A stretch of 52,936 nucleotides of DNA from Clostridia bacterium (GTDB lineage Bacteria > Bacillota > Clostridia > Oscillospirales > CAG-272). Location of the stretch: contig JAGBAS010000071.1 in assembly GCA_017938885.1 (NCBI GenBank), positions 1-52,936 of the forward strand, in the 5' to 3' direction. Under the pieces are notes generated by a model that saw only the letters and a program-made list of their open reading frames with translations, had not been told where the DNA came from and made no database searches. The translations under genes were made by a program, and so were the position numbers. This document shows, piece by piece, positions 2,857 to 50,273 of this stretch; positions within the stretch are counted from its first letter, which is position 1, and each line of letters starts with the position of its first letter.

Positions 2857-5043
2857 TCAAGCCTTCCGCTTTCCGCAAGCCACAGCGGCGGCGATAGCGG
2901 TCAGCAGGACACCGCCGGATACGGTCACGACCCCGCCGCAACCGCCCTTGACAGCCTCGGTCTCGGGGGCGGCGGTAGTCATCTCGGTGGGTGCCTCGGT
3001 GGGTGCTTCGGTAGGCTCTTCGGTGGGTTCTTCGGTAGGCTCCTCGGTGGGTTGCTCCGTCGGCTCCTCCGTAGGTGCCTCGGTCTCCTCCGCAAAACGG
3101 GTGACCTTCTCAATGGTCAGGTAATGGAGCAGCTTTTCGGCGTTGCCTGCGGCGGCAACCGCCAGGTAAACCGTGAAGCTGTCCCCCTCTTCCTCCGAAA
3201 GGTTGACGGTCAGACCCTCAAAACGGCCGTTCTCGGCGGCGGGGAGCTTCATGTTGCCCTCGCTCGTAGCCTTGTCCAGGATCTCCTGCTCGGCATCGGT
3301 GAAAGTGCCGTCGGTACACTCATACCAATGGAGCTTGTCAATGGACCAGTAATGCTTGCCCTGGCCGCCGTTGACCTGGGCCCAACCCGACAGGGTGAGC
3401 TTACCGTCCTCGCCGAGCATCAGCTCGGGCAGAGTCGCGGGCTGGATGGCAGCAGCCTTCTGCTCGGCCGTCCAGGTAGAGGTGTAGGCGGGATCACGCT
3501 TACCGATCAGGTCGTCATAATCGGTGCCGTTGATGCGCTCCACCTGCGCCAGATAGCCGTAGGCGTAGGAGGGCTCCACCTTGAGGTCAGCTCCGTCGGT
3601 GTCGGGAGGCTCGGGAGCCGAGAGACCGATGCCGGGGAGGGTATAGGTGGCGGCGGTCTCGATGTTCTTGGGCTCCTCGTCCACGCCCTTGTAGACCACA
3701 CCCATACCGTGGATGACGGCACGGATGCTGTTACCTCCGTCCACGGCGGAGGAACGGCGGACGTAGTTACTGCCCGACAGGGTCACCATGGTGGTGGAGC
3801 CGCCGCCGTCCATGAGGATGGCGGTGTGCAGACCCAGCTCCTTGCAGAGGGCGGGGAGGTTGGTCATCTTACAGGCGTTGCGGGTGCCGTCCACAGTGGC
3901 GGTGGTAGAGAGCATGATGACCTTCCCTTCCTTGGTCAGACCCAGGATGGTGCAAGGGTAGTGGGTGTTGTTGCCGGGCTGACCCGTGGCGTTTCCCTTC
4001 TGCATGAGGGTGAAGAAGCCCGCCATGGCCTCGGTGACGCCCGCCCAATCCGCCTTCTGGGAGGAGGTCATCATATCGGCAATCACGTTGGGCGTCATGG
4101 TAACGGTATCGCCCACCTTGAACTTGTCGGTGACGCGGTTGACGGCACTGCCTCGGGCCGAGATGACCACGGTCTTTTCGGTGATGGCGGGACGCTCGGC
4201 CTTATCACCGCTCTTGAAGATCGCCACGACCTTACCCGTGGTCTCCTTACCGATGCGGAAAGCGGAGTCAGAGCACTCCAGGTAGACCTCGTAGGCATCC
4301 TCAAAGGCGAAGGACTCGGTGCCGCAGCGCTGATTGTAGAGGATGACCGAATTGGGGGCGGGGAGGCGGTTGACACCGTTAGCCGTCACCGAGATGTTGG
4401 TGGTGGTGTTCTCCATAGCGATATTGATGGTGGGCTGACCGATCATGGCGGTGCCGTCGGCCTTGATGGCAAAGACGGGGCCGCGGGAGGCACCGGTGCC
4501 CCGCTCCACGTTGTCGTCGCGGGCCAGATTATTCTCGTCGTCGAGCTGGTGGGAGGCCCACAGCTCCCCCGCGATGATCATGGTGCCGCGGGAGACGCTG
4601 ACGTGCTTAACCGCGGGGCCCGTGGCCTTCTTGCCGTCGCCGTCGTAGTCGGTGTGGTGGACGATCCAGGGATCGCCGTTGATGGCGGCGATGACGGTAC
4701 CGTCGCTGTGGGCCTTGTTGTAGGCCACGGCGTTGTTGCCCATGGTATCCTTGGTCCAGGTGTACGCGCCGCCATTGAGGACAGCCATGGTAAGCTTGTC
4801 CGACAGCTCCAGCTCCACCACGCTGACCAGACCGTCGGCGGCGGTGCTGTACTTGGAGCCCTTCTCCAAGAGGTATTGAGTCAGGGTGGCTCCCGTCTCC
4901 TTCTCGTTAATCTTGATGGGGGCGGAGTCGGTCTTGACTGTGCCCGTCAGGGTCGCGGGGGCGGCGGACACACCGAAGGAGCAGATCCCCGCCAGCATGG
5001 ACAGGCAGAGGAGGAGGGTTGTGATCCTTATAGAGAGTTTCAC
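2857..5043 (-). CDS. Secreted phosphodiester glycosidase (NAGPA-like) domain protein
   Basis: A protein of 728 aa with an N-terminal signal peptide (about 1-27). The NAGPA/DUF2233 domain lies in the first 450 residues: INGDPW, TILGLTKEGKV and the family signature AILMDGGGSTTMV are visible. Family members cleave sugar phosphodiesters on proteins or cell-wall polymers; the substrate here is unknown. Near the C-terminus is a low-complexity EEPTE/EAPTE linker, then a segment with GGCGG, one hydrophobic stretch and a basic tail (GKRKA), which looks like a cell-surface sorting or anchoring tail. The start is GTG (5041-5043), supported by AAAGGA 7 bases upstream. It follows the Opp transporter genes on the same strand and may be cotranscribed, although a hairpin (5072-5102) intervenes. 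Confidence 0.8.
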   Translation of the reverse strand: MKLSIRITTLLLCLSMLAGICSFGVSAAPATLTGTVKTDSAPIKINEKETGATLTQYLLEKGSKYSTAADGLVSVVELELSDKLTMAVLNGGAYTWTKDTMGNNAVAYNKAHSDGTVIAAINGDPWIVHHTDYDGDGKKATGPAVKHVSVSRGTMIIAGELWASHQLDDENNLARDDNVERGTGASRGPVFAIKADGTAMIGQPTINIAMENTTTNISVTANGVNRLPAPNSVILYNQRCGTESFAFEDAYEVYLECSDSAFRIGKETTGKVVAIFKSGDKAERPAITEKTVVISARGSAVNRVTDKFKVGDTVTMTPNVIADMMTSSQKADWAGVTEAMAGFFTLMQKGNATGQPGNNTHYPCTILGLTKEGKVIMLSTTATVDGTRNACKMTNLPALCKELGLHTAILMDGGGSTTMVTLSGSNYVRRSSAVDGGNSIRAVIHGMGVVYKGVDEEPKNIETAATYTLPGIGLSAPEPPDTDGADLKVEPSYAYGYLAQVERINGTDYDDLIGKRDPAYTSTWTAEQKAAAIQPATLPELMLGEDGKLTLSGWAQVNGGQGKHYWSIDKLHWYECTDGTFTDAEQEILDKATSEGNMKLPAAENGRFEGLTVNLSEEEGDSFTVYLAVAAAGNAEKLLHYLTIEKVTRFAEETEAPTEEPTEQPTEEPTEEPTEEPTEAPTEAPTEMTTAAPETEAVKGGCGGVVTVSGGVLLTAIAAAVACGKRKA
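2965..3085 (-). repeat. Tandem repeat coding for the Pro-Thr-Glu linker
   Basis: Imperfect tandem units of about 12 bases (variants of GAGGAACCTACC on the coding strand) encode a run of EEPTE/EAPTE. This is a wall-spanning type of linker between the enzyme and its C-terminal anchor and is likely to vary in copy number between strains (inference). Confidence 0.75.
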
Positions 5044-12550: not shown

Positions 12551-15500
12551 TCACTCGGCGAAGGTCAGGGTGACCTCGCCGGTGATCTCATCCACCTCCA
12601 CGCGGGCGGTGTTATTGTCGGGGTCCTCGACCGTAACGGCAATGCCGCTCATGTCGATCCCCTCAATCTTACCGGCACCGCAAAGCAGGCCGATGTTGTA
12701 GTCGTTCGGACGGTAGCAGTCCTTGCCGATCTCAATGGTACCCGTAAGGGTTACGCCCGTGATGGTCGCGCCCTCCTGGACGGTACCCGCCAGCAGGCCG
12801 TAGTTGGTTCCCTGCATACGGGAGCCCGCCGCGATGCGGAAGGTGATATTCTCCAGGCGGAGATCGGTGATGGAGGAGGAAGCCCCCAGTACGCCGAAGA
12901 GACCGCCGTTGATCTTGGAATTATCGCCTTGCAGAACAGTCACGTTCGAAATGGTATGACCGTTACCCACAATGGAGCCGGTGAACTCGCCCGTGGACAT
13001 GACCGTAGGCCACAGGGTATTGGAGAAGTCCAGATCGGCCTCAATGAGGTAACTGCCCCCCAGACGGGCGTTGTCGTAGAACTGCTTGGGGGTGGAGATG
13101 CGGAACCAGGTTCCCTCCATCCAGGTAGTGTAGAGGCGGATGGTACCGTCGCTCTCCACCGTACCCGTTGTGTAGTCCACGTTGCCGCTGACCTTGCCCT
13201 CGGCGGGGACGGTCATGGCCTCATCCATGAACGCGGATTCGAAGGTCATGCCCTCCACAGCGGGGAAGTCCTTCATATCCAGCTTACCGGTACGCTCATT
13301 CCACACGGGCAGGTCGATGGTGACCAGCTGCTTGGTCTCGATCAGAGAGAAGGAGCCGTCCGCCTGCTCGGCGTAGAACTCGAAGTTGAAGTAGGGGACC
13401 CAGGCGGCGTAGAGGGTGATCTCGCTTTCTGCCGAGCCCTTGGTGCCGTTGGGGTCCACGGCCAGGCGGTCGGTCTTGAAGTCCCACTTACCACTGTAGG
13501 TGTAGCCCTGGGGACGGCCGCTCTGGGCGGTGGGCTTGCCGTACTCGTCCAAAGGCTGACCGCTTTCATCCACGCGGAGGGTACGCTCGGTATACCAGCC
13601 CGCCAGGAAGTAGCCGGTATTGGACACGGGGAAGGCACTGTCCTTGCGGATGGGATCGTCGGGAGCGATCAGGGCGATCTGCGCCTTGCCCGAAGCGTCG
13701 GTCTTGTAATCGGCGGGATTGAAGACATCCACGATGTAGACCTCGTTGGGGGAGCCCGCGAAGGAGCCTCCGTTGGCGTCGAAGCGGACGCTGACGGTGT
13801 AGCCCTCCTCGTCCATGCCGGTGTAGGGGGTATCCCACAGGGACAGGCCGCCCACGATAGCCAACACACCGAAGACCACGGCGGCCACGGCCAGGACAAT
13901 GACGATGGCCAGGGTCACGGCGGGAGGCAGGCTGAAATGGATGGGTGCGCGGGTCTTTCCGAAGGCCTTCAGGTTGGTCTTGGGACGGCTCTTGCGGGCC
14001 TTCTTAGGAGCCTTGACGGTGGGCTCCGTAGGAGCTTCCTCCTCTGCCGGAGCTTCCGCAGGCACATCGGCGGCAGCACGGTCGGCATCGTCGGCATCGG
14101 AGACAGAATGGTCGGCATCGTCGGCAACCGCAGAAGCTTCGGTGGAGGCTTGGGCAGTAGCCTCGGCTTCTCCATCGAGAGCGGGAGTAGCCGCAGCACC
14201 GCTTGCGGCGGCAGCCGCAACAGCCTTGCGCTTGCTCAGATAGAGACAAGCGAAAACAATGGCGGCGACGAGGAACAGGAGTGCCAAAGCACCCATGGCC
14301 AAAGCAGAAGCAGGGATGGACTCGAAGAATCCGCCGTTTCCGCCATCCTCGGTGTCGGTCTCGGTCTCATCTCCGTTCTCCAGATACTCCAGATCCTTGA
14401 TACGCTTCTCAGCCTGCTCCAGCTTGGCGTAATTGGTGACCAGAGCGCGCTGTTCAATGGTAGAGATCTTATCGTAGGCCTCGCGGGCGGCCATGACCAG
14501 GGGCTTATCGGCCAGGGAGACGGTCTCGGGGAGCGCGTCGATGGCGGCGATGGCGGCCAGAGTGATGTCGTCAGCGGCGGCGGCACCATCCACCACGGTA
14601 GCGAAGTACTGACCCCAGATGAAGGAATCGTACTGACGGCCGTTGACGGGACGGATCATGACCAGGTCGCCCTCGGTCAGGCCGATATAATCCACGAAGT
14701 TGGCTCCGTAGTAAACGTTAGAGGGCGTATCCGAGGCGTTCCACATGAAGTAGGGCACAATGCCGAGACCGTCGTAGTAGATCTCCTCGCCCTCGGCGGA
14801 GCCCGTAAAGCTGTACTGACCCGTAGCGGGAATGTGCTGCTTGCTGTTGTAGAGCTCCACGTCGTAGGCCTCCTCCAGCGCAGGCGCGAAGTAGGACGTG
14901 AAGGAAAGCATAGTCAGCTTGTCACAGCCGTAGAAGGCCTTGTGACCGATGGCCTTCAGGGTATAGGGGGTCACGACCTGACGGACAGGCGCGCCCGCGA
15001 AGGCCATGTCGCCGATACGGACGGTACCGTCGGCCACGGTGACCGAGGCGGTGTCGCCTGCGTAGGCAATAAGCTCCAAACCCGTGGGCACCACGCGGTA
15101 GAGATGTCCGTCGATCACGCGAACTGTATCGCTGATAGCAAAGGTCAGAGTCTCGGTGGCATACTCATTGCCATTGAAGGTCTCGGTCTCGGTGGACTTG
15201 AAGGCCTCCAGCCGGCAGTTTGCGAAGGGATTGTCGCCCAGATCGGCCAGAGCCTGTCCCAGGGTGACGGTAAAGTCAGTCATCTCGGTCTTGAGGAAGG
15301 CATGGGTACCGATATAGGCGGCAGCCTCCAGATCAGCCGAGGTGATAGATGTGTAGGCGAAGGCGTAATCCCCCACAGAGGTGACCTTGTTCAGATTCTG
15401 CACGGCGGACAGAGCCTCGCAGTAGGAGAAAGCACCCTCCCCAAGGCTCACGCCGTTGGGATGCAGCGTCACGGATGAAAGCCCCTCATTGTACACGAAG

Positions 15501-18500
15501 GCGTAGGTGCCGATATCCTCCACCGTCGAGAGATCGGCGGCGGTCAGCGCGGTACTGTTGAAGGCGTTGGTGCCAATGGACAGAACACCCTTGAAATCAA
15601 AGTCGGACAGAGCCTCGCAGTAGAAGAAGGCCTGTGCGGGGATGGCGGTGATGCCGTCGCCCAGCTTGACAGACACAAGACTCTGACAATGGGCAAAGGC
15701 GGACTCGCCGATGGCGGTGGCGGCGGCCAGATCGACCGATTCCAGCGCGGCGGCGTAGTAGCGGTAGATGTACATACCCTCCTCGTCCAGGGCGGGGACG
15801 GTCATGTTGCTGTCGGAGAAGACGTAGAGCATATCACCCGAGAAGGCCGACTCGCCCACCGCCGTCACGGCAGAGAGATCCATGCCCTTCAGGGACATAC
15901 TGTTGTAGAAGGCAAAATCACCGATGGAGACGCCCTTACCCAGGGTCACGTTCTCCAGCTCCGATGCGCCGTAGAAGGCGGAATGCCCCACCGTGACGTT
16001 CTCACCGATGGTGAGCGATGTCAGGGGAGAGGTCAGCGTGTAGTAGTAGAAGCGGGTATCGCCCACCTTGTAGAAGTCAGCCTTGTAGTTGCTGTCGATA
16101 TCCAAACGGAAGGCAGAGTCGCCAATGACGACGCTGTTACCGATCGTCACCGACTTCAGGGACTTGCACTCGCGGAAGGCGGAGTTTCCGACGGTCACGC
16201 CGTCGGGAATGGTCACGCTCTCCAGCGCGGTACGGGCAAAGGCGTACTCACCGATGACCGACACCCCCGAAAGATCGGGAGCCGTCTTGATGGCGGTGCG
16301 GTAGAAGCTGTAATTGTCAATGGCGGTCAGCTTGCCGAGGGTGATGCTCTCCAGCTTGGAGCAATCCGCGAAGGCGTACGCCCCCACAACCGTGACCTGG
16401 GGCATCTTGACCGAGGTGATCTGTCGGTTGCCCGAGAAAGCGCCCGTACCGATGGAAGTCACCTTGGCATCGGTCAGCTCAAAGGAGCCCTTGACACCGG
16501 GAGCCACCAGGATGAGGGTGTTCCCTTCCTTATTTAATAAGTAAGGCTTACCGGACTGGACCGTAAAGGCGGTATTGCCCGCATCCACGGTAAAGGCATT
16601 CAAGGCGGTGCCTCGGAAGGCATACTCACCAATGACGGCGACGTCCTTACCCAGCGTGACCGAGGTCAGAGCCGCGCAACCGTCGAAGGCACCTGCGGGC
16701 ACCACCGAGGCGTTGATGGAGACGGTAGGCAGGGACTTACAGCCCGAGAAGGCGTAGCGGCCCAGCTTGATCTTCTCGGCGGGGATGTTCACCGCAGTCA
16801 GGGATTCACAGCCCGCAAAGGCGTAAGCACCCACCGACTGGGTGGAGGCCGAAAGGGTCACGCCCTTGAGGGGGGCGTTGCCAAAGAAAGCGTAGTCAGC
16901 CAGAGCCACCACGCTGTCCAGCTTGATGGAACCCTCCAGGGCACAGTCGGCGAAGGCATTCTGGTTGATGAATTTGACGCTTTCCAGACCCTCGACGGAC
17001 TTGAGGGCGGTACAGCCGTAAAAGGCGCCCTGGTCGATGCGCTCCAGAGTGGAGGGCAGAACCACCCGCTTCAAGGCGGTCAGATTGGCAAAGGCGAAGG
17101 GGCCAATGGTTTTGACACCCTCGGGGATAATGACCTCCTCCACGGTGTCGTCACCGATGAACCAGATCTTAGTGGTCTCGGGGGCGTCCTCGGAGATCTC
17201 GTCCTCGGGTCCCTTGGGGATGTAATCGAAGTTGGAGAAGGCGTACTGGCCGATCTCGGTGATGGAGAGGGAAGCGGGGATATTGACCACGCCGCCCAGA
17301 CCGAAGTAGTGGGTCAGGGAGGGGCCCGTCGTAATGTAGGGATCCTTGACGCTGATGCTGATGGACTTGGAGAAGAAGGTAGGATTGCCGTCCATCATGA
17401 CCTTGACGGCGATGGATGCAAAGCCCTCGGAGACGGCAGTGATCTTGCCGGTCTCGTCCACGGTCACGATGTTCTCGTTGGAGGATTCAAAGACTACTTC
17501 AGTATCCTCGGGGAAGTAGGCGTCCAGACGGTAGCGCAGGGTCACGGCTTCGGAGGGGAACATGGAGAGGCTGTAGCTCTCACCCACGAATTTCATCTCG
17601 TCGCCGTCCACGCCGATCTCCCGCTCCTCGGAGGAGAGGAAGTAGTACGCCTTATCCACCAGGTATCCCGTCAAGCGGAAATTCTCCGCCACGGGCTTGT
17701 CGTAGCGGACGTAGCCCTCATCGCCCTCGCCCCGCACCGTCAGGGTGAAGGAGGCGGTCTTCTTGGTCACGGGATCGCGGGCTACGATACGGGACACACC
17801 GGGAGCGATGGCCACCAGCTTATCATTGACGACCGTTGCCACGTCCATGTTGGCGGAGTAATACTCCAGAAGCTCGGGCCACTCGGTGTTGGGGTAGACC
17901 AGAGGCTTGAGGTCGTAGACCTCGTTGGGAGACAGGGTCAGCTCGGACTCGGTAAAGTAGAAATCGGTGTAATCGTCGGGCAGGGGGATCTCGTAGGCGG
18001 CGGTGTTCAGCGCGTAGTCGTAGGCGACCACGGTGATGCAGTTACCGTTGGCGGAACCGGTACGGATCTCGTCCACGTAATCGGTCAGCTCGTAGATGAC
18101 GGTGGTGGTGGAGTTCTCCTCGGAGTAGACGGGGGTCATGTACTTGTCAAAGGCCTTGACCATGTAGCCGTCCTGCTCCAGGGCCACGTAGCCCACCTGC
18201 ATACACATGGCGTAGTGGTTGTCGTAGACCGACATCTTGGCAAAGAGGCGGGTCTTCTTGGCCGACTTGTCGTACTCGGTGTAGAACTCGCAGTCGGTGA
18301 TGGCGGGAGCCTCGAAGTCGGTGACGACGGGGAAGGTAAACGTATTATTGTCGTTGGTCTCGGCACCGTCGCGATCATAGTCCATGTAGGTTTTGAGGGT
18401 GACGGTGTAGGAGGTATTATTCTTGAGATTCTGCTCAATGGCCGAGAACTTGACGTCAACGTTGGCGGGGAAGATGGTCGCGCCGTTACTGTAGGACTTG

Positions 18501-21400
18501 CGGATATCCCGATCCACGGTCTCGTAGACCACCTCGCCGGTCACGTCGTCGGTGACCGTCACCACGACCTCCTTGGCGTTTCGGAGCAGACCCGCCCAGA
18601 CGTACTGGACGGAATTGACCGCACCCTCCTGGTTGGAGATGGAGATGTACTTGCGGTCTGCGGCGATCTTCTTGTCGGCAGGGTTCTGGACGAAATAGTA
18701 GGCACCCATGAAGCTCACGTAGTCCCCCTCCACGCGTCCCACGGGACGGGTGGCGTAGGCATCGGGCAGGGTCTTGTCCAAAAGGTCGATGGAATCGTCC
18801 AGCTCGTCCTTATTGGTAGCAAAGAAATCCAGGTCGAGGATGGGAGCCTCGGTCCAGTCGCCGTAGAAGGCCAGGAAGGGAGCGTTCAGGCTGACGGCGG
18901 TTCCCTCCTTGGCGGTCAGGGTCACGAAGCCCTCCACGTACATACCGTTCTCGAAAGAATCGTTCAGGTACTTCTTGTCGTCCTCGCTCAAGGTGATGGT
19001 AACGGTCAGCTCGGCAACCTTACCGCCCGCCACGGTGACGGTATTGCCCGAGGCGGTACCGCCCGAGCAGGCCGTCAGCACCACAGAGGCGCCGCCCAGG
19101 ATGTAGCCCTGCTCGGTGACGGTGGTCTCGCCCTGGTTGGTCTTGGTGTCGCTGACGCCCTCGGTCATGACGAGAGCCGAAACGTCATAGGTCAAGGCCG
19201 AGGCGCCGAAGTTGTTGATGGCAAATTTGAGGGTGTACACACCGGTGCAGGTAGGATCGTCGCCCAGCTCGATCTTGGACTTGTCCATGATCTCACCCGT
19301 CTTGCGGTCGTAAGTCTGTACGAAAGCCTTGGTAGCGGCGGAATTGGTCAGATTGGCCAGGCCCGCGCCCTGCTTACGGGGGGAATAGGGCAGGCCGTTG
19401 GTATTGTAGACGATGTCCGCAGTGGACATGAGAAGCTGATTGACGAAGGCGGCTACGGCCACAGGGTCGTTGGCCTTATCGGGGAAGTTCTGCTTGACGT
19501 ACTGACGGAGCAGGGCGGTCACACCCGACATATTGGGGGTCGCCATGGAGGTACCCGAAATGCGGTCGTAGGACTGACCGGGGACAGCCGACAGGATGGA
19601 GCCGCCGTGGGCGGTGATCTCAGGCTTCAGCTGGAGATCGGGGGTGGGGCCCCAGGAGGAGAAGTCGGACATGAAGGGGCCCGAGGTCTGGGAACGCTTC
19701 ACCGACAGGACGCCCTTGCCGGCGGCGGCCAGCAGCTCACCGTCGTCCTGGCGGATGGAGGCCACGGCGATGGTGGTGTCGCCCACGTTCATCTTGATAT
19801 CACCCGATACGTTATTGTAGATGATGATACCCGCCGCGCCCTTCTGCTGGGCCACGTTGGCCTTCTCCTCGAAGGTGGTGGAGCCGCGGGCGACCAGCGC
19901 GATCTTGCCGGTCACGTCGATGCCGGTATAGTCAGCCGAGCGGCCTGCGCCGGGGATGGTGATGAACTCGATCTCCATTTCGTCCACTCCGTCGGGGAGA
20001 AGATCGTCGTAGAAGTTCTTCTCCTCGGAGACGCGGTCGGAGGACTCCAGGAAGTAGATGATGGTCTCGCCAAAGAGCAGGTAAGGCGTCTTGGTTCCGC
20101 TGATGGAGGCGACCGAAAGCGCACCCTTATATGTAGAAGGAGAACCGACGGTAGCCGAGTCGGGGTTGGAGGTAAGCCCCAGGTTACCGTTCTTCTCGGA
20201 GGAATAGGTAGAATTGTAGCTGTTGGAGGCGGCGGCTACGATGGAGATACCGGCGGCGCGGATACGGTCGTACACGCCCGAGATGGCTTCCTTATCCATC
20301 TCGCGGGAGAAGCCGCAGTCGGTACCGAGAGACATATTGATGACGTCCACGCCGATGACCACGCAGTCGTCCAGAGCCGCCAGGATCCAGGCGGAACGTG
20401 CGGAGGTCTCCACGTCCGAGAAGGTCTTCATGATGCAGAGCTGGGCGTTGGGTGCAACACCGGTAATGGTATCGTCCTTACCCGCGATGATGCCCGCCAC
20501 GTGGGTACCGTGATCCGAGGCGATGGGGTAGACATCGGAGTCCCCGTCGGCGTAGTCGAAGCTGAAGGGCACCTTCTCGTTGATGTAGACGTCGGAAGCG
20601 GTCAGATTCGACTGCATACCCGAAGCGCGGGTGTCCCCGATAAGGGCGGCGACCTCGTCAAAGGTCAGGCCCAACTGACTGCGGTCGGCGGTGAAGTTGG
20701 CCAGAGAGAAGGCGGAGTGGTAGTAGTCCAGACCCGTGTCCAGAACCGCCACCACGGTGCCGGTGCCGTCGTAGGCGAAATCCGAGCTGTTGAAGATACC
20801 CGTGGGGTAGACGTTGACGGTGTTCTCCACCAGCTGCGTCCCCACAGACTTGGTCTCCTCGGGCTTGTAGACCTCACCGATGATGGTGGTGCCTCGGTCG
20901 CCCACCGTCTTGGCGATGGCCTCGAAATCCCCCGCTCGGATGACCAGCTCAAAGCCGCTGAGAACGTTGGTATAGTCCTCGCCCGTGACGTAGTTCAGCT
21001 CGGCCTTGTCCAGGTCGGAGAGCAGAACCCGCTTCTCGGCGGCGATGCGGTCGCGGATGGCGGCGGCCTCGTCCGAGAGGGCGTACTCGGTGAAGCTCAT
21101 GCCCGAGGAGGCCCCGGGATACTGCTCCAGCAGAGATTTTTCCTTGACCTCAATGATAACCGATATTTCATCGGTTTCCTTGATGGTCTCGGGGAGCTTG
21201 TAGATCACCGAGCTGTCGTAGTAGTTCTCCTTGTTGGTGATGAGATCACCGTCGAAGAGATGGATCCCGCCTCCGTTTTGGGTACTGCCGGGGATGAGCC
21301 AACCGATGACGGCGGCGGCCACCGACAGGGTCATCACGGCGGCCAGCACCACCGTCAGGACGCGGATCGTAGTCTTTTGCTTTGCGGAATTTGCGAACAT
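12551..21400 (-). CDS. Giant cell-surface subtilisin-like protease with LRR array
   Basis: A protein of 2,949 aa. I start at MFANSAKQ (AAGGTAAGG upstream) rather than the in-frame ATG 26 codons earlier. After an N-terminal signal/anchor helix (about 10-32) comes an S8 domain with triad Asp221 (AVLDTGLD), His297 (SDHGTHVAG) and Ser618 (SGTSMATP), with a protease-associated (PA) insert near 500-570. Fn3-like domains follow, then a BspA-type leucine-rich array (about 1370-2170; units like IGEYAFRG). A membrane helix (about 2363-2390), a roughly 100-residue Ala/Glu/Lys-rich segment and a second helix (about 2492-2522) precede an InlB-type repeat (VSVRFDANGGSF) and a GLUG-like C-terminus. Two internal helices would place the Ala/Glu loop in the cytoplasm. 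It probably cuts host or dietary protein and feeds the Opp system downstream. Fusion of two genes is possible. Confidence 0.87.
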   Translation of the reverse strand: MFANSAKQKTTIRVLTVVLAAVMTLSVAAAVIGWLIPGSTQNGGGIHLFDGDLITNKENYYDSSVIYKLPETIKETDEISVIIEVKEKSLLEQYPGASSGMSFTEYALSDEAAAIRDRIAAEKRVLLSDLDKAELNYVTGEDYTNVLSGFELVIRAGDFEAIAKTVGDRGTTIIGEVYKPEETKSVGTQLVENTVNVYPTGIFNSSDFAYDGTGTVVAVLDTGLDYYHSAFSLANFTADRSQLGLTFDEVAALIGDTRASGMQSNLTASDVYINEKVPFSFDYADGDSDVYPIASDHGTHVAGIIAGKDDTITGVAPNAQLCIMKTFSDVETSARSAWILAALDDCVVIGVDVINMSLGTDCGFSREMDKEAISGVYDRIRAAGISIVAAASNSYNSTYSSEKNGNLGLTSNPDSATVGSPSTYKGALSVASISGTKTPYLLFGETIIYFLESSDRVSEEKNFYDDLLPDGVDEMEIEFITIPGAGRSADYTGIDVTGKIALVARGSTTFEEKANVAQQKGAAGIIIYNNVSGDIKMNVGDTTIAVASIRQDDGELLAAAGKGVLSVKRSQTSGPFMSDFSSWGPTPDLQLKPEITAHGGSILSAVPGQSYDRISGTSMATPNMSGVTALLRQYVKQNFPDKANDPVAVAAFVNQLLMSTADIVYNTNGLPYSPRKQGAGLANLTNSAATKAFVQTYDRKTGEIMDKSKIELGDDPTCTGVYTLKFAINNFGASALTYDVSALVMTEGVSDTKTNQGETTVTEQGYILGGASVVLTACSGGTASGNTVTVAGGKVAELTVTITLSEDDKKYLNDSFENGMYVEGFVTLTAKEGTAVSLNAPFLAFYGDWTEAPILDLDFFATNKDELDDSIDLLDKTLPDAYATRPVGRVEGDYVSFMGAYYFVQNPADKKIAADRKYISISNQEGAVNSVQYVWAGLLRNAKEVVVTVTDDVTGEVVYETVDRDIRKSYSNGATIFPANVDVKFSAIEQNLKNNTSYTVTLKTYMDYDRDGAETNDNNTFTFPVVTDFEAPAITDCEFYTEYDKSAKKTRLFAKMSVYDNHYAMCMQVGYVALEQDGYMVKAFDKYMTPVYSEENSTTTVIYELTDYVDEIRTGSANGNCITVVAYDYALNTAAYEIPLPDDYTDFYFTESELTLSPNEVYDLKPLVYPNTEWPELLEYYSANMDVATVVNDKLVAIAPGVSRIVARDPVTKKTASFTLTVRGEGDEGYVRYDKPVAENFRLTGYLVDKAYYFLSSEEREIGVDGDEMKFVGESYSLSMFPSEAVTLRYRLDAYFPEDTEVVFESSNENIVTVDETGKITAVSEGFASIAVKVMMDGNPTFFSKSISISVKDPYITTGPSLTHYFGLGGVVNIPASLSITEIGQYAFSNFDYIPKGPEDEISEDAPETTKIWFIGDDTVEEVIIPEGVKTIGPFAFANLTALKRVVLPSTLERIDQGAFYGCTALKSVEGLESVKFINQNAFADCALEGSIKLDSVVALADYAFFGNAPLKGVTLSASTQSVGAYAFAGCESLTAVNIPAEKIKLGRYAFSGCKSLPTVSINASVVPAGAFDGCAALTSVTLGKDVAVIGEYAFRGTALNAFTVDAGNTAFTVQSGKPYLLNKEGNTLILVAPGVKGSFELTDAKVTSIGTGAFSGNRQITSVKMPQVTVVGAYAFADCSKLESITLGKLTAIDNYSFYRTAIKTAPDLSGVSVIGEYAFARTALESVTIPDGVTVGNSAFRECKSLKSVTIGNSVVIGDSAFRLDIDSNYKADFYKVGDTRFYYYTLTSPLTSLTIGENVTVGHSAFYGASELENVTLGKGVSIGDFAFYNSMSLKGMDLSAVTAVGESAFSGDMLYVFSDSNMTVPALDEEGMYIYRYYAAALESVDLAAATAIGESAFAHCQSLVSVKLGDGITAIPAQAFFYCEALSDFDFKGVLSIGTNAFNSTALTAADLSTVEDIGTYAFVYNEGLSSVTLHPNGVSLGEGAFSYCEALSAVQNLNKVTSVGDYAFAYTSITSADLEAAAYIGTHAFLKTEMTDFTVTLGQALADLGDNPFANCRLEAFKSTETETFNGNEYATETLTFAISDTVRVIDGHLYRVVPTGLELIAYAGDTASVTVADGTVRIGDMAFAGAPVRQVVTPYTLKAIGHKAFYGCDKLTMLSFTSYFAPALEEAYDVELYNSKQHIPATGQYSFTGSAEGEEIYYDGLGIVPYFMWNASDTPSNVYYGANFVDYIGLTEGDLVMIRPVNGRQYDSFIWGQYFATVVDGAAAADDITLAAIAAIDALPETVSLADKPLVMAAREAYDKISTIEQRALVTNYAKLEQAEKRIKDLEYLENGDETETDTEDGGNGGFFESIPASALAMGALALLFLVAAIVFACLYLSKRKAVAAAAASGAAATPALDGEAEATAQASTEASAVADDADHSVSDADDADRAAADVPAEAPAEEEAPTEPTVKAPKKARKSRPKTNLKAFGKTRAPIHFSLPPAVTLAIVIVLAVAAVVFGVLAIVGGLSLWDTPYTGMDEEGYTVSVRFDANGGSFAGSPNEVYIVDVFNPADYKTDASGKAQIALIAPDDPIRKDSAFPVSNTGYFLAGWYTERTLRVDESGQPLDEYGKPTAQSGRPQGYTYSGKWDFKTDRLAVDPNGTKGSAESEITLYAAWVPYFNFEFYAEQADGSFSLIETKQLVTIDLPVWNERTGKLDMKDFPAVEGMTFESAFMDEAMTVPAEGKVSGNVDYTTGTVESDGTIRLYTTWMEGTWFRISTPKQFYDNARLGGSYLIEADLDFSNTLWPTVMSTGEFTGSIVGNGHTISNVTVLQGDNSKINGGLFGVLGASSSITDLRLENITFRIAAGSRMQGTNYGLLAGTVQEGATITGVTLTGTIEIGKDCYRPNDYNIGLLCGAGKIEGIDMSGIAVTVEDPDNNTARVEVDEITGEVTLTFAE
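14850..17300 (-). repeat. LRR_5 (BspA-type) coding repeat array
   Basis: The coding strand carries more than 25 degenerate units of about 66-75 bases, each giving a variant of L-x-x-V-x-L-x-x-x-V-x-x-I-G-x-x-A-F-x-x-C. BspA-type repeats mediate adhesion in gut and oral bacteria; here they sit between the protease domain and the membrane segments of the same protein. Confidence 0.85.
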
Positions 21401-21468
21401 GTTCCTTACCTTTCTGACGCTTTTCGGCGTGTTTTCGACATATATAAAAAAGTCCATGCGTAAACAGT

Positions 21469-21497
21469 ATTTTATCACATCGAAATGGATAATTCAA
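21469..21497 (-). promoter_or_regulatory. Promoter of the protease-opp transcript
   Basis: TTGAAT (21492-21497) and TAAAAT (21469-21474) are spaced by 17 bases on the minus strand, about 70 bases upstream of the chosen protease start. No convincing promoter is seen further down before the opp genes, so the whole block may depend on this one (inference). Confidence 0.6.
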
Positions 21498-45095: not shown

Positions 45096-45154
45096 GGCGG
45101 GGCAGAAAACTTTCATACAAATACAAAAAAAGAAAACTTTTTTTCAAAAACCTC

Positions 45155-45183
45155 TTGCTTTTTTTGCAAAAGTATGTTATAAT
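45155..45183 (+). promoter_or_regulatory. Promoter of tRNA-Trp
   Basis: TTGCTT (45155-45160), 17 bases, TATAAT (45178-45183), 14 bases upstream of the tRNA. Confidence 0.7.
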
Positions 45184-45197
45184 ATATCCCGTTGCAC

Positions 45198-45273
45198 AGG
45201 GGTATAGCTCAGCTGGTAGAGTACCGGTCTCCAAAACCGTGGGTCGCGGGTTCGAATCCTCCTGCCCCTGCCA
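45198..45273 (+). tRNA. tRNA-Trp (anticodon CCA)
   Basis: A 76-base tRNA including an encoded CCA end. The acceptor AGGGGTA pairs with TGCCCCT, with discriminator G as in tRNA-Trp. The D arm (GCTCAGCTGGTAGAGT), the anticodon loop CTCCAAA with anticodon CCA at 45231-45233, and the T arm (GCGGGTTCGAATCC) are all standard. It marks the edge of an A+T-rich accessory region. Confidence 0.97.
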
Positions 45274-45313
45274 AGTCTTTAGGTCGATTTAGATCCGACC
45301 GAGAAAAAACGAG

Positions 45314-45350
45314 AAAAGCGGAGATTTCGAGAGATTTCTCCGCTTTTTTC
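45314..45350 (+). terminator. Intrinsic terminator after tRNA-Trp
   Basis: AAAAGCGGAGA pairs with TCTCCGCTTTT, followed by TT, about 40 bases past the tRNA. Confidence 0.85.
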
Positions 45351-45399
45351 GCGCCTAACTTTTTTCAGATTTCCATAGATCCATTTTCGATTTTTATTC

Positions 45400-45600
45400 G
45401 AGTCGAAGGATTCGAACTACCGAAAACACACTTTTTCATGAATTGAATACGGAACACAAGCGACCGGAAGGACTTGAACCCACGACAGGGTTTCAAATTC
45501 TTCCGGTTTTTTACGCTCATCACAAATTGTTTACAAATAGTACCTTCCAAAACAGATCCGTACCTTCTTCGAGAGGACTTGAACTACAGAAAAAGTTTTT
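45400..45600 (-). repeat. Three tRNA T-arm-like fragments
   Basis: Minus-strand segments near 45402-45425, 45465-45490 and 45570-45595 each read like the 3' half of a tRNA T arm (for example GGTTCAAGTCCTTCC, TTCAAGTCCTCTCG, AGTTCGAATCCTTCG). They do not build full tRNAs. The middle one sits inside a long hairpin, ACCGGAAG/CTTCCGGT with a T-run (45463-45512), that could end transcription on the plus strand. No gene is seen in 45350-45680. Confidence 0.45.
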
Positions 45601-45624
45601 TAATAAGTGATTGGTTGCCACTAC

Positions 45625-45653
45625 TTGAAAAATATGTCGAATTATGATATAAT
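45625..45653 (+). promoter_or_regulatory. Promoter of the nuclease-like gene
   Basis: TTGAAA (45625-45630), 17 bases, TATAAT (45648-45653), about 33 bases upstream of the ATG. Confidence 0.75.
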
Positions 45654-45686
45654 AAATATAATTATAAAAAATTCACGGAGGTTCTT

Positions 45687-46616
45687 ATGGATCAGAATTA
45701 TGTATATGAGAAAATTTCGCAGCTCTCAAGTGTAGCATGTGAGCGTATGAACCAGTTTTCTGCACAAATACTAAAAACTCGGGGCGGGCGAATCGGAAGC
45801 GGTATGGGTGCATTACTTGAAGCCCTTTGGGGATATATGATGAATCAAATTATTTTAGAAGAAAATGATTTGGATTGTGAAATAGCCTGGTTTCCAGATA
45901 ACCAATATAATGATTTTTCATGTATCAGGCGCGATACCGTCTGGGACTCAACTACACGTACTGGAGAATACTTTCGAATTGAAGCCAAAAGCATGAACGT
46001 CGGCGCTGATGAGTCCAAAGCGCATTTTGCAGCATTAGACAGAGAAATTGAGAAAAATGATGCACTATTAATTTTGGTTTGGGAATGGAGAAAAATTGAT
46101 GATTTTCACTTTTCTCCCATAGTTATTGATAGCTTTTTTGATAGAGCAAAAGGTGTTGCAATGTTGAGAGATGCTCTCCATATTGCGCGTGGAGGATATT
46201 TTGTTGACTCTCGACATTGCCCTGATGGTTGTCAATCATATTGTTGCACGCATAAAGGCGAACCATTAAACGCAGAGGGAAAGAGAGAGCGCCTAAGCGG
46301 TCCCGAAGCAACTCGCCCTTCGCTTAAAGTTTCATATGCTGCAAACTTTGGTGGCTTGGTAAGAATGCTTAAAACTGATAACGAAAACGCGCGAAACGTT
46401 TTGAGAAACATACGTAGACAAAACTTAGTTGCTGATCATTACATATCCTTTATTCACAAGAACTTTCCAAACGAAGAGAAAAACCAGTATACAGTTGGTG
46501 AATTAAGAAGAGTAGCTACAAGTTTAGGAATGAACAGTTCCGGAATGAGTAAAGATGCATTATACAATGCAATCCGTTCCATTGAAAATTATCAAACAGC
46601 TCTTAAAAGCATTTGA
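45687..46616 (+). CDS. PD-(D/E)XK-like restriction endonuclease candidate with SAP-like tail
   Basis: A protein of 309 aa, not assigned to a named family. A nuclease-type core is suggested by Glu45 (GMGALLEALWG, in a helix), Asp76 (YNDFS) and the pair Glu99-x-Lys101 (YFRIEAKS) after 22 residues, the order expected for PD-(D/E)XK enzymes. A Cys/His-rich segment, HCPDGCQSYCCTHKGEP (177-193), may bind zinc. The last 40 residues (YTVGELRRVATSLGMNSSG) look like a SAP or Rho-N-like DNA-binding helix pair. CGGAGG precedes the ATG. It is A+T-rich, converges on the hsdM/hsdS pair, and shares a bidirectional terminator with it, so it may be the nuclease of that system (inference). Confidence 0.65.
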   Translation: MDQNYVYEKISQLSSVACERMNQFSAQILKTRGGRIGSGMGALLEALWGYMMNQIILEENDLDCEIAWFPDNQYNDFSCIRRDTVWDSTTRTGEYFRIEAKSMNVGADESKAHFAALDREIEKNDALLILVWEWRKIDDFHFSPIVIDSFFDRAKGVAMLRDALHIARGGYFVDSRHCPDGCQSYCCTHKGEPLNAEGKRERLSGPEATRPSLKVSYAANFGGLVRMLKTDNENARNVLRNIRRQNLVADHYISFIHKNFPNEEKNQYTVGELRRVATSLGMNSSGMSKDALYNAIRSIENYQTALKSI

Positions 46617-46656
46617 AAATATAGCCAGCAACAAATCTTAGTTGCTGGCTATATTT
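46617..46656. terminator. Bidirectional terminator between nuclease candidate and hsdS
   Basis: AAATATAGCCAGCAAC pairs perfectly with GTTGCTGGCTATATTT (16 bp) around an 8-base loop. It begins at the stop of the nuclease-like gene and ends inside the stop of hsdS. Confidence 0.9.
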
Positions 46657-47321
46657 CACTTATAAGCATCGGTAATGTATTTATCGATATCTGTTGGGAT
46701 TTCTTTTGCAAGCCGAATATGCTCTTCTAATTCTCTTCGTTTCTTTAATATTTCCTCAGCTATTTGATTTTGCTTTTTTAATGAGGGAATAGGGAGAACA
46801 ACTTGTTTGAGATCCGCCATTGCGATTCGCGGCAAAGCCGCTCCTTTTATTAATCCAACAATATTACGATTAATTGCATCAGTTCTTAGTAACTCGGAGA
46901 GATAAACGGGATTGACTTTCTCTATTATTGGAGATAAAACAATAATCTCAGTTGTACATACACCGTTTTCAAAATAGTCATTAAAATACACTTTGTTAAG
47001 TGTTGGTCGCAGTCTGCCATAAAGAATGTCTCCCTTATAGAATCGTTTGCAAGTAGATTTTATTTCTTCACCTTGTTTGGGAGAGAACGAAGCGATTCGT
47101 CCTGTTTTTGCTTCAATATTTTCCAAACCAATGTAATTTATATTTTTGTCCGCATCGCTTAATGTAATACTTTCACGACGTTCACTAACAAGTGTTTCGA
47201 GCTTTACAAGTTTGAATTCATCATTAGTTAGCAATTCTTCTTTGGGAAGAAAAAACTGAACGCTCCAAACATTTTTTATAAACAAATCATCACGAGAAAT
47301 GATGTTAGTAATCATTACCAC
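46656..47321 (-). CDS. hsdS: Type I-like specificity subunit with a single target-recognition domain
   Basis: A protein of 221 aa, about half the usual length of HsdS (around 400). Only one target-recognition domain is seen: YGRLRPTLNKVYF and LPIPSLKKQNQIAEEILKKR (the conserved end of a methylase-S domain and its coiled-coil arm). A one-domain S subunit would have to act as a dimer, as in BcgI-like and some type I systems. It overlaps hsdM by 7 bases. A second ATG lies two codons downstream. With hsdM it methylates DNA; no HsdR is in the window. It is A+T-rich like its neighbours. Confidence 0.8.
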   Translation of the reverse strand: MVMITNIISRDDLFIKNVWSVQFFLPKEELLTNDEFKLVKLETLVSERRESITLSDADKNINYIGLENIEAKTGRIASFSPKQGEEIKSTCKRFYKGDILYGRLRPTLNKVYFNDYFENGVCTTEIIVLSPIIEKVNPVYLSELLRTDAINRNIVGLIKGAALPRIAMADLKQVVLPIPSLKKQNQIAEEILKKRRELEEHIRLAKEIPTDIDKYITDAYK

Positions 47322-48859
47322 CCCTCCTTATCAATAAAAGATTTAAATTCCTCTGCAACCTCAAACCAATCAGGATTTTTTGTATCATTACCTTTACTAT
47401 CAAATCCTATATCTTCAATAACTCCAGTAAAGATTTTGTAATTTTCCACAGTTTTTGTTTTTGTTGCTATCAATATGCTCGTCTTGATATTTGCTCCAAA
47501 CGGCGTAAATGTTGATAACGGAAGACTTATGATTCCCCTTATTTTAACATTGTTTTGTAACCAAGTTCGAACATATGCATAAGACTTATTGACAAAAACA
47601 CTTTCGGGAAGAACAATAGCAAGTTTTCCACCCTCTCTCAGTAATTGAATTGAACGTTCCAATCCCAATATTTCAAGAGGCACTTTGTTTTTTTCTTTAA
47701 GTAATTCAAAATCTCCTAAATATGAATATGATTCTTTTTGTAAAACAGAGCCAAAAGGGGGATTGGTCATAACTATATCAAATGAATTGCCAGATAAATC
47801 TGTATATGAATCAAAAGGAAGCAAGGCATCTGTACAGCGAATATTAGAATGACCATCTCCATGAAGGCGCATATCGGTCATTGCAATACGAACCATTCTT
47901 TCGCTTTTCTCAATTCCGTGTAATTTGTAAAATATAAATTCGTTCTTCGCTTTTTCATTGTCAGCAAGAGGAAGTACATACATTAAAGATTCGGTTAAAA
48001 AGTGAGCAGATCCAGCAAATGGATCAATAATCAAATCAGATAGATTTGGAGATATACAAGAAACAATAAAACGTATCACTTGTATAGGAGTAAAATATTG
48101 CCCCATTCCCGAACGAGTAGCGGGATTATACACGTTTTGAAATGCTCTAGCTTTAAAATCAATGTCCGCATTCGAAAAATTATATTTTGAAAACAAACGC
48201 CCAGCTTTTACAATTGCATTCGAAGAAATAAATATCGCCTCTTCAAATACGCCACGGGAACGTTTGTAGCCTGGAATTTTCAGGGCATATACACGCATAT
48301 CATATTTATTCGCTTTATTATACAAGAATCTAATACTAGCTGCATATTCTTCCCCATTGCCAACCGATGAAGAAAAAATATTTTCTCCAGATTCTTCATC
48401 GTACATTTTTGCATAAATTAATTTGCAAAGTTCGTCCAATGCTTCATCGGGATGCAATCCGTCTAAATCACGCAAAAAAGAATGAGCTTCATAAAAAACG
48501 TTTTCAAAACGATTGCTTTCTATTTTTGAAGATGTTATTGTATTCACAATTGATGTGTGAGAATAAGCAACCATATCCTTCAGCAAAATATATTGTTTGC
48601 TTTTAAGGTTTTTAGAATAACATCTAAATTCGCCCTTGTGCCAAGTTAGCAATAAAGAGCAAAATTCATCGCCATCTTGTTTGTTTTTCTCATATACTGA
48701 TGAAATATCGTAAGCATTTTCGCTCGTAATTTCATACGCTAAAAGAAAAATTGCACTGTTAGCTGAATAAAATCTAATTTTTCTTGTGCTTTCCGAACAT
48801 ATAATATCATGTTTTATTAAATCGAGTGAATATCCATACTCAAGCAAAAAATCTTCCAT
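47315..48859 (-). CDS. hsdM: HsdM-like N6-adenine DNA methyltransferase
   Basis: A protein of 514 aa, started at MEDFLLEYGY because GGAGG lies 6 bases upstream; an ATG 12 codons earlier has no such site. The N-terminal 230 residues include a helical region. The SAM-binding motif I is DPFAGSAHFL (near 275) and the catalytic motif IV is NPPFG (near 364), in the order of gamma-class N6-adenine enzymes. It is the M subunit of a type I-like or BcgI-like system. The gene has its own strong promoter and leads into hsdS. Confidence 0.88.
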   Translation of the reverse strand: MEDFLLEYGYSLDLIKHDIICSESTRKIRFYSANSAIFLLAYEITSENAYDISSVYEKNKQDGDEFCSLLLTWHKGEFRCYSKNLKSKQYILLKDMVAYSHTSIVNTITSSKIESNRFENVFYEAHSFLRDLDGLHPDEALDELCKLIYAKMYDEESGENIFSSSVGNGEEYAASIRFLYNKANKYDMRVYALKIPGYKRSRGVFEEAIFISSNAIVKAGRLFSKYNFSNADIDFKARAFQNVYNPATRSGMGQYFTPIQVIRFIVSCISPNLSDLIIDPFAGSAHFLTESLMYVLPLADNEKAKNEFIFYKLHGIEKSERMVRIAMTDMRLHGDGHSNIRCTDALLPFDSYTDLSGNSFDIVMTNPPFGSVLQKESYSYLGDFELLKEKNKVPLEILGLERSIQLLREGGKLAIVLPESVFVNKSYAYVRTWLQNNVKIRGIISLPLSTFTPFGANIKTSILIATKTKTVENYKIFTGVIEDIGFDSKGNDTKNPDWFEVAEEFKSFIDKEGW

Positions 48860-48897
48860 ATATTCCTCCAAAAACAAAAAGTGACCATCTGTCATAT

Positions 48898-48926
48898 ATT
48901 ATACGTCTATATGTCCGTTTTGTCAA
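48898..48926 (-). promoter_or_regulatory. Promoter of hsdM-hsdS
   Basis: TTGACA (48921-48926), 17 bases, TATAAT (48898-48903) on the minus strand, about 40 bases upstream of the chosen hsdM start. Confidence 0.85.
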
Positions 48927-48982
48927 GAGGTGTGTGAAAACGATTGTTAAAAATTTTCATATAGATGAGATAGCAACGATGT

Positions 48983-49050
48983 ACATAGATTCGTTTACAA
49001 GCATGGAGCAGCACCCCCAGAAGATAGCGGTCGCGTGCATCTCCCATCAT
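48983..49050 (+). repeat. Direct repeat, copy 1
   Basis: About 68 bases (starting ACATAGATTCGTTTACAAGC) match the segment at 50277-50345 at roughly three bases in four. Copies flank the hairpin array and the lone membrane protein gene. The stretch 48927-49140 holds nothing else that I can identify. Confidence 0.6.
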
Positions 49051-49141
49051 CGCCCAGGGATAAGTCTACCCACCGACTAAAAACCATGGATCGATTTCGA
49101 AAAAACTTACTCTGCGGATCGATTTTGAAAGGGTGTGCCAT

Positions 49142-49360
49142 GAAAAAAGCCATTCGCGAAAGCGAATGGCTTTTTTCAGTGAAATTCGTTCCTGCGGAAC
49201 GAGTGGAATACGCCGGCGCGGGTGAAATTGCCTGCGGCAGTGAAATACGCCTACGGCGTGTGAAGGAACGAATTTCATTTCACATTGCGACCAACGGAAG
49301 CAATATTTCACAATTCACGAAGTGAATTATTTCACATTCACCGTAAGGCGAATATTTCAC
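49142..49360. repeat. Ordered array of short hairpins with GTGAAAT/ATTTCAC spacers
   Basis: The array opens with a perfect 16-bp hairpin (49142-49177, GAAA loop, core GCCATTCGC). Units then alternate GTGAAAT with small hairpins TCGTTCC-tgc-GGAACGA, TGCC-tgc-GGCA and ACGCC-tac-GGCGT on the left, and hairpins AATTCAC-ga-(A)GTGAATT and ATTC(A)CC-gtaa-GGCGAAT followed by ATTTCAC on the right. GGAACGAATTTCA in the middle is complementary to the first unit, so the whole is one large inverted structure. A promoter starts at its right edge. Confidence 0.8.
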
Positions 49361-49389
49361 TTGAAAAACTTACGTATCTATGATATAAT
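49361..49389 (+). promoter_or_regulatory. Promoter of the 286-aa membrane protein gene
   Basis: TTGAAA (49361-49366), 17 bases, TATAAT (49384-49389). The -35 box touches the end of the hairpin array (ATTTCAC then TTGAAA). Confidence 0.75.
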
Positions 49390-49412
49390 ATTGGAGGAAA
49401 GGCGGTGCTATT

Positions 49413-50273
49413 ATGACAAAACAAGAGATTTTGCAGGGAGCTCTTGCCTTAAACTGCAATGATAAAAAATATACGATTACAGTTGAAGGCGATAAAATAA
49501 TCATCGAAACCAAATATCGCAGTACGAGTGTGAGAGAATCAACATTTCGCTGTATCGCGCAGTTAAAAGATAATAAAACCTATACCGAAACAACTTATGA
49601 CTTTAATGGGTACCGTATGCAATATGGAGTCCGGAAAAAAGCAGTCTCTTACTGCTTAGATGGGTCAAAAGAGGTATTCGATTCAGAAGAGATAAAGAAA
49701 GTCTTACGAAATTATCTCGATTCGTGTGGGTATCAAAGAATCGTCAATAAAAAACTCATAGCATTGTGTATCTCTATTCCGATTATTGTTATTGTTGCCA
49801 TACTGATTGTCGTTACCATTTCATTAAAATCGGAATCTGGTTTTATTGATACAAACGAACCTGAGAATTTTTCGTTGACCGAAATTACACGAGAGGAAAT
49901 CTTAAGCAAAGATAATAATTACAGGATTTCTATGGTGTCGGAAAGACATTCCGGACGTCATACAAACATAATCGGAACAAGGCTTAGAGATTACGATTAT
50001 GATTACATGAGCAGATCGTTTGGCAAAATTCATGGCGTCGTGATTCTTCAAGCAACGAAAATATCGGGCAATACCCTTACGCTGACTATCCATAGCTCCG
50101 TGGAATCGGGAAATGCAGAAATAGTCATTATGATTGACGGAGAATACTATTGTTCGGTTGATGTTAATCAAGATCAATCTGTCACACTGCAAAATGTTTC
50201 CGACAAGGAAGTGCTCGTCAAGCTTGCGGGAGAGGGAGCAAAAATAAAAATTGATGTGACACGCGTCTACTAA
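49413..50273 (+). CDS. Membrane protein of unknown function
   Basis: A protein of 286 aa, not recognised. Residues about 1-112 are cytoplasmic and charged, with a beta-rich look (KYTITVEGDKIIIETKYRS). One membrane helix lies at about 114-138 (LIALCISIPIIVIVAILIVV). About 150 residues follow outside, with possible beta strands (GNTLTLTIHSSVESGNAEIV). The gene is A+T-rich, like the R-M genes, and has its own promoter and terminator, with the ribosome site GGAGG plus AAAGG. It lies between two copies of a direct repeat. A surface or sensor role is possible but not shown. Confidence 0.6.
   Translation: MTKQEILQGALALNCNDKKYTITVEGDKIIIETKYRSTSVRESTFRCIAQLKDNKTYTETTYDFNGYRMQYGVRKKAVSYCLDGSKEVFDSEEIKKVLRNYLDSCGYQRIVNKKLIALCISIPIIVIVAILIVVTISLKSESGFIDTNEPENFSLTEITREEILSKDNNYRISMVSERHSGRHTNIIGTRLRDYDYDYMSRSFGKIHGVVILQATKISGNTLTLTIHSSVESGNAEIVIMIDGEYYCSVDVNQDQSVTLQNVSDKEVLVKLAGEGAKIKIDVTRVY

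Follow-up and report, generated by a model that had tools for sequence, protein, structure and literature searches.

A probable Type IIH-like restriction-modification system with a convergent nuclease and a half specificity subunit in a Clostridia genome

We analysed a 52,936-nucleotide stretch of DNA (the window; contig JAGBAS010000071.1 of the Clostridia bacterium assembly GCA_017938885.1) carrying a three-gene module, in which an operon for a methylase (M) and a specificity subunit (S) on the minus strand faces a convergent nuclease gene (R) on the plus strand. The module is most likely a compact anti-phage restriction-modification (R-M) system belonging to a hybrid class that is known but not common, in which a half-sized specificity subunit guides a methylase of Type I style and an ordinary-looking Type II enzyme does the cutting separately, and we consider it highly probable that R, S and M form one Type IIH-like ("Type 1 1/2") system, similar to AhdI, PshAI and BsaBI and operating as proposed below. 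We take R to be, very probably, the system's cognate endonuclease, because it is linked to S and M in all three bacterial loci in which it was found, belongs to a Type II endonuclease family, has a matching predicted fold and stands in a genome where no HsdR was found. Of the two options offered by an earlier sequence-only reading, a cognate nuclease or an unlinked defence gene, these observations support the first.

The components of a Type IIH system are all present: a separate methylase lacking a nuclease domain, a separate S with a single TRD, and a separate IIP-like endonuclease, the last recognised by family and fold. AhdI consists of a Type IIP-like endonuclease with separate M and S subunits, which form a 2M + 2S complex and methylate an interrupted palindrome (PMC4081073; PMC2878638), and PshAI and BsaBI are described as composed in the same way (PMC3874165). 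Compared by described composition, the window module shares with them a separate gamma-class M, a single-TRD S, a stand-alone Type II nuclease and the lack of a translocase. It differs in the convergent arrangement of R and M-S, and in that no controller (C) gene like that of AhdI was seen by eye among the window ORFs. The architecture is already known, though uncommon, and R already falls within an existing REase_II family.

Since the architecture equals that described for Type IIH, we infer methylation by an M2S2 complex and cleavage of one palindrome by a dimer of R. The single TRD of S would read one half-site, two S subunits would pair via their helices and carry two M subunits, and the resulting complex would methylate an interrupted palindrome at an adenine in each half. 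The R dimer, with D76, E99 and K101 as predicted catalytic residues and E45 likely assisting, would read the same site itself and, using Mg2+ without ATP, cut when neither strand is methylated, so that unmodified phage DNA would be destroyed. By analogy with the known enzymes, this stoichiometry, the interrupted-palindrome target, the shared target of R and S, and cleavage itself would all be expected here.

Gene layout and base composition

R (45687-46616, plus strand) encodes a 309-aa putative Type II restriction endonuclease, with GGAGG preceding the ATG. S (46656-47315, minus strand) encodes a 219-aa half specificity subunit, in which a single TRD is accompanied by a helical region at the C-terminus, and M (47315-48859, minus strand) a 514-aa gamma-class N6-adenine DNA methyltransferase. 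In the ORF listing, S spanned 46656-47321 (minus strand) from a GTG at 47321 and M spanned 47315-48895 (minus strand) from an ATG at 48895; we favour the ATG codons at 47315 (S) and 48859 (M) because of the ribosome sites in the upstream sequence. GGAGG lies just upstream of position 48859, the 514-aa length matches that of M in a relative (L002, below), and the start of S overlaps the stop of M by one base (TAATG).

A putative R promoter at 45625-45653 (plus strand; TTGAAA-17-TATAAT with TG before the -10 element) matches the consensus at 11/12 positions, and a putative M-S operon promoter at 48898-48926 (minus strand; TTGACA-17-TATAAT) at 12/12. Both are consensus matches only, from a scan that called 22 sites against 15.2 expected in shuffled sequence. 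The 39 bp separating the convergent R and S genes are filled by an inverted repeat (46617-46656) with 19-nt arms that are 95% complementary and flank a 2-nt gap. It is likely a shared two-way terminator; the terminator scan did not pick it.

R, S and M have a GC content of 33-39%, against 60.5% for the flanking rimO (named by eye) and 64.1% for the flanking mutY (named by its HhH-GPD and NUDIX_4 domains). The interval 45275-48981 had no match in eight stretches, from six genomes of the same genus, around rimO or tRNA-Trp, two markers that fall in different stretches in most of the same-genus genomes compared. The three genes thus form a low-GC insert that looks recently acquired. The interval 45150-49400 was searched for a direct repeat of the tRNA-Trp end and contained none, so that integration at the tRNA is conjectural. 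A plasmid search with R gave no match, and one with S returned 203 records, none covering 80% of the query.

Adjoining the R-M genes, positions 49413-50273 (plus strand) encode a 286-aa protein of low GC content (37.6%), with a promoter-like site resembling that of R. Elsewhere in the window, a 2975-aa ORF (12551-21478, minus strand) contains subtilase, PA, Fn3-like and BspA-type leucine-rich repeat domains, and its product is a probable giant surface protease.

The R nuclease and its cyanophage homologues

By sequence, R had no match in Pfam, NCBIfam (above cut-off), PHROGs or the PDB, and the PDB sequence search yielded no solved structure for the family. R had been left unassigned at first; its best PADLOC family is REase_II PDLC03408 (317 bits, profile positions 20-312 of 314), with which it agrees without visible difference, PADLOC family names being derived from source sequences, not from assays. 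The series E45...D76...E99-x-K101, picked out in the sequence-only reading, is invariant in alignments with two bacterial relatives (L001 and L002) and two distinct phage homologues, and the Cys/His-rich patch noted with it (C178, C182, C187 and H189) is invariant in all three bacterial copies. The order of acidic and lysine residues is the same in EcoRV.

In an AlphaFold2 model of R, built on four sequences only (pLDDT 79.6, pTM 0.79), helix 40-59 bears E45, strand 76-81 D76, and strand 94-104 both E99 and K101. When the model was compared with the PDB using Foldseek, the ten best rows were all Type II restriction endonucleases (including BglI, HincII and SfiI), headed by R.SwaI with an E value of 4.1e-3 and a probability of 0.99; nothing was found at E ≤ 0.001. 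VIA-align returned SwaI with a Z-score of 10.0 (155 residues, 4.9 Å), HincII with 8.8 and EcoRV with 7.8, together with unrelated rows (Rep15 and CinB, Z 5-6) that ranked below the endonucleases. As no Foldseek row reached E 0.001, the fold call is based jointly on these ranks, the residue order and the PADLOC family, which point to an EcoRV-like PD-(D/E)xK fold in the model. A non-nuclease fold, which the sequence-only reading had named as the result that would count against it, did not emerge, the best matches being nucleases. R shares its predicted fold with R.SwaI, HincII, EcoRV and BglI at ~10% identity only, and adds to it the Cys/His patch and an HeH/SAP-like tail (residues ~265-300).

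The SAP-like character of this tail, also proposed earlier, is plausible only: the model has two helices there (270-279 and 289-297), but R gave no Pfam SAP match up to E = 1. Against viral models, Foldseek found nothing at E ≤ 0.001, and an HeH/LEM row in BFVD appeared only at E 2.3. A literature search for SAP-tailed Type II enzymes found nothing on topic. The Cys/His patch may bind metal, and the tail DNA.

A homologue of the R core (34.6% identity, E 2e-35) is carried by T4-like cyanophages, in three of 50,697 phage records and one IMG/VR contig, among them Synechococcus phage S-M1 (L005, 4995-5696), phage QB2 (L004) and L007 (3397-4110). Viral scans with R alignments confirmed none of 43 stretches in one case and one of 26 in another, the latter on the L007 contig. 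In S-M1 and QB2, the gene directly follows psbD, and no methylase is annotated near it in the 10.7 kb read. The match from psbD to the next gene measures ~1,130 bp in S-RIM2-type records versus 1,867 in S-M1; given this difference in length, the phage gene seems to have been inserted cleanly, being present in some records and absent from others. The two distinct homologues aligned are shorter than R, keeping the four acidic and lysine residues without the Cys/His patch or the tail; a model of the cyanophage homologue was poor (pLDDT 59.7). We found no literature on cyanophage restriction or homing nucleases associated with psbD. A restriction-type nuclease carried by a phage without a protecting methylase raises the question of whether it acts in host DNA degradation, in phage-phage exclusion or simply as a mobile gene.

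The distribution of patch and tail bears on another arrangement, in which R would dock on M2S2 through both elements and cut where S directs, giving a motor-less, ATP-free three-subunit enzyme between Type I and Type IIB. Such docking would account for the presence of patch and tail in the three bacterial copies and their absence from the two phage homologues, which have no noted methylase neighbours. However, R is matched in fold by Type IIP enzymes that need no partner, the existence of the cyanophage homologues implies a core capable of acting by itself, and the known Type IIH enzymes are described as having independent endonucleases (PMC4081073). We regard this arrangement as improbable. 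We think it equally improbable that the bacterial-only patch and tail are a docking module to M2S2 while the cyanophage members are free nucleases acting without a methylase. The Type IIH-like reading, with an R that reads its site independently, is preferred.

Linkage and constraint in bacterial relatives

A scan of genome_contigs gave eight candidate stretches, in two of which relatives of R were confirmed: L001, from a goat-gut Clostridia MAG (74% identity), and L002, from Lachnospiraceae MD329 (72%). The pairing of genes in other genomes, which the sequence-only reading had suggested surveying, proved constant, as both loci have the order R→←S←M seen in the window; three bacterial loci are the whole basis of this linkage. 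The best PADLOC families are also the same in all three, at 302-321 bits for R (PDLC03408), 111-132 bits for S (PDLC03590) and 440-462 bits for M (PDLC03218).

Among the loci, protein identity is 72-74% for R, 53-61% for S and 65-71% for M, while identity at third codon positions is 40-48% over the three genes. This divergence at third positions relative to protein identity shows that the arrangement is old and that constraint acts on all three proteins. For R, the observation is more than chance, because the genes are only 41-47% identical at third positions whereas the proteins are 72-74% identical.

These data also weigh on the possibility that M and S are an orphan methylase, derived from Type I and with an epigenetic role, and R a defence nuclease with no relation to them that came to lie alongside. 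That R lies on the other strand, behind a promoter-like site of its own, would suit such an origin, as would the R relatives that stand alone in cyanophages. Yet R adjoins and converges on the same S-M pair in 3/3 loci despite the strong third-position divergence, and PADLOC places it among Type II endonucleases. We judge the orphan methylase decidedly improbable, and the related suggestion of an unlinked defence gene in the same island is disfavoured by the conserved order. A single Type IIH-like system remains the preferred reading of the three genes.

R is rare, being present in the window's own genome only among the genomes searched: 398 of the phylum, 391 of the class (with PDLC03408) and 295 of the family. 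One R-like match, in genome G823, was dropped as chance (20 bits, two stops, among unrelated genes). Beside the R-M genes of L002, an ORF at 4104-4988 (minus strand) resembles a tyrosine recombinase by eye, as might be expected if the module is mobile.

The methylase, the half specificity subunit and the search for HsdR

M contains a Pfam N6_Mtase domain (E about 1.2e-28 to 1.3e-28), with motif I as DPFAGSAHF and motif IV as NPPF, the latter invariant in the three bacterial loci. Its best PADLOC family is MTase_II PDLC03218 (462 bits), and it also matched PDB entries 2okc and 5ybb_A. No HSDR_N-type nuclease domain was detected in M up to E 0.01, and a dead nuclease remnant in its N-terminus was rejected (hhalign probability 0.1%, E 0.6). 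Membership of MADS or BREX was likewise rejected, as the NCBIfam matches were far under their cut-offs (MAD2, 167.5 of 720 bits; MAD5, 28.9 of 400 bits).

S has one Pfam Methylase_S domain (1.8e-8), its best PADLOC family is Specificity_II PDLC03590 (132 bits), and it aligns with the N-terminal half of two-TRD S structures of 398-412 aa (3okg and 5ybb_D). With one TRD in 219 aa, it is not the two-TRD HsdS of Type I systems. Its relatives are half-size as well (220 aa in L001 and 222 aa in L002, as aligned), so that all three loci have a half S. Both M and S are of Type I ancestry.

The absence of an HsdR beside HsdM and a one-TRD HsdS, first noted for the window, extends to the assembled genome as judged by domain searches. 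HSDR_N (PF04313) had no match in the assembly to which the window belongs (3.03 Mb in 145 contigs, 95% complete), whereas the same search was positive in nine of 14 control genomes. The other result named in the sequence-only reading as counting against it, an HsdR elsewhere in the genome with the same neighbours, thus did not turn up either. The eight ResIII helicase matches comprise PriA, RecG, UvrB, Mfd and RecQ, together with a DEXH helicase of uncertain subtype, an SNF2-related protein and an unnamed one. The genome has one Methylase_S match and two N6_Mtase matches. At 95% completeness, an hsdR could have escaped the search, but such a gene would be unlikely to partner M and S. A Type I system whose HsdR has been lost or lies elsewhere in the genome, an outcome that the Type I ancestry of M and S might suggest, is barely credible and was rejected, given the lack of an HSDR_N match in the 95%-complete genome, the mostly housekeeping nature of the ResIII matches, the half S in 3/3 loci and best PADLOC families for M and S that are Type II sets, not Type I sets.

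For the preferred Type IIH-like system, M provides a link to Type IIB/IIG enzymes such as BcgI and BsaXI: its closest PDB sequence match is RM.BsaXI (8w0p, 1.9e-24), but, unlike in those enzymes, the nuclease is not fused to the window M. The close M family occurs in two of 391 class genomes, the window's own and G519. The G519 relative (48% identity over 387 aa), on a contig of only 3,056 bases, is a 612-aa protein (L042, 264-2869, minus strand) in which an N-terminal HSDR_N_2 nuclease (1e-17) is fused to the M-family methylase. It adjoins a 260-aa S in which Methylase_S matches once, and together the two resemble an enzyme of the Type IIB/IIG-like sort that uses a half S. The N-termini of the window M and the G519 protein do not align. 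One methylase family thus includes fused and separate nuclease versions. Because the closest family member of M in the sampled class genomes carries a fused nuclease, the two form a natural comparison for how a half-S methylase couples to a fused as opposed to a separate nuclease.

A second R-M system is present in the window's own genome (L010; contig C53, 1459-3718), where an Eco57I/N6-type methylase gene is followed by one for a BsuBI/PstI-type restriction endonuclease.
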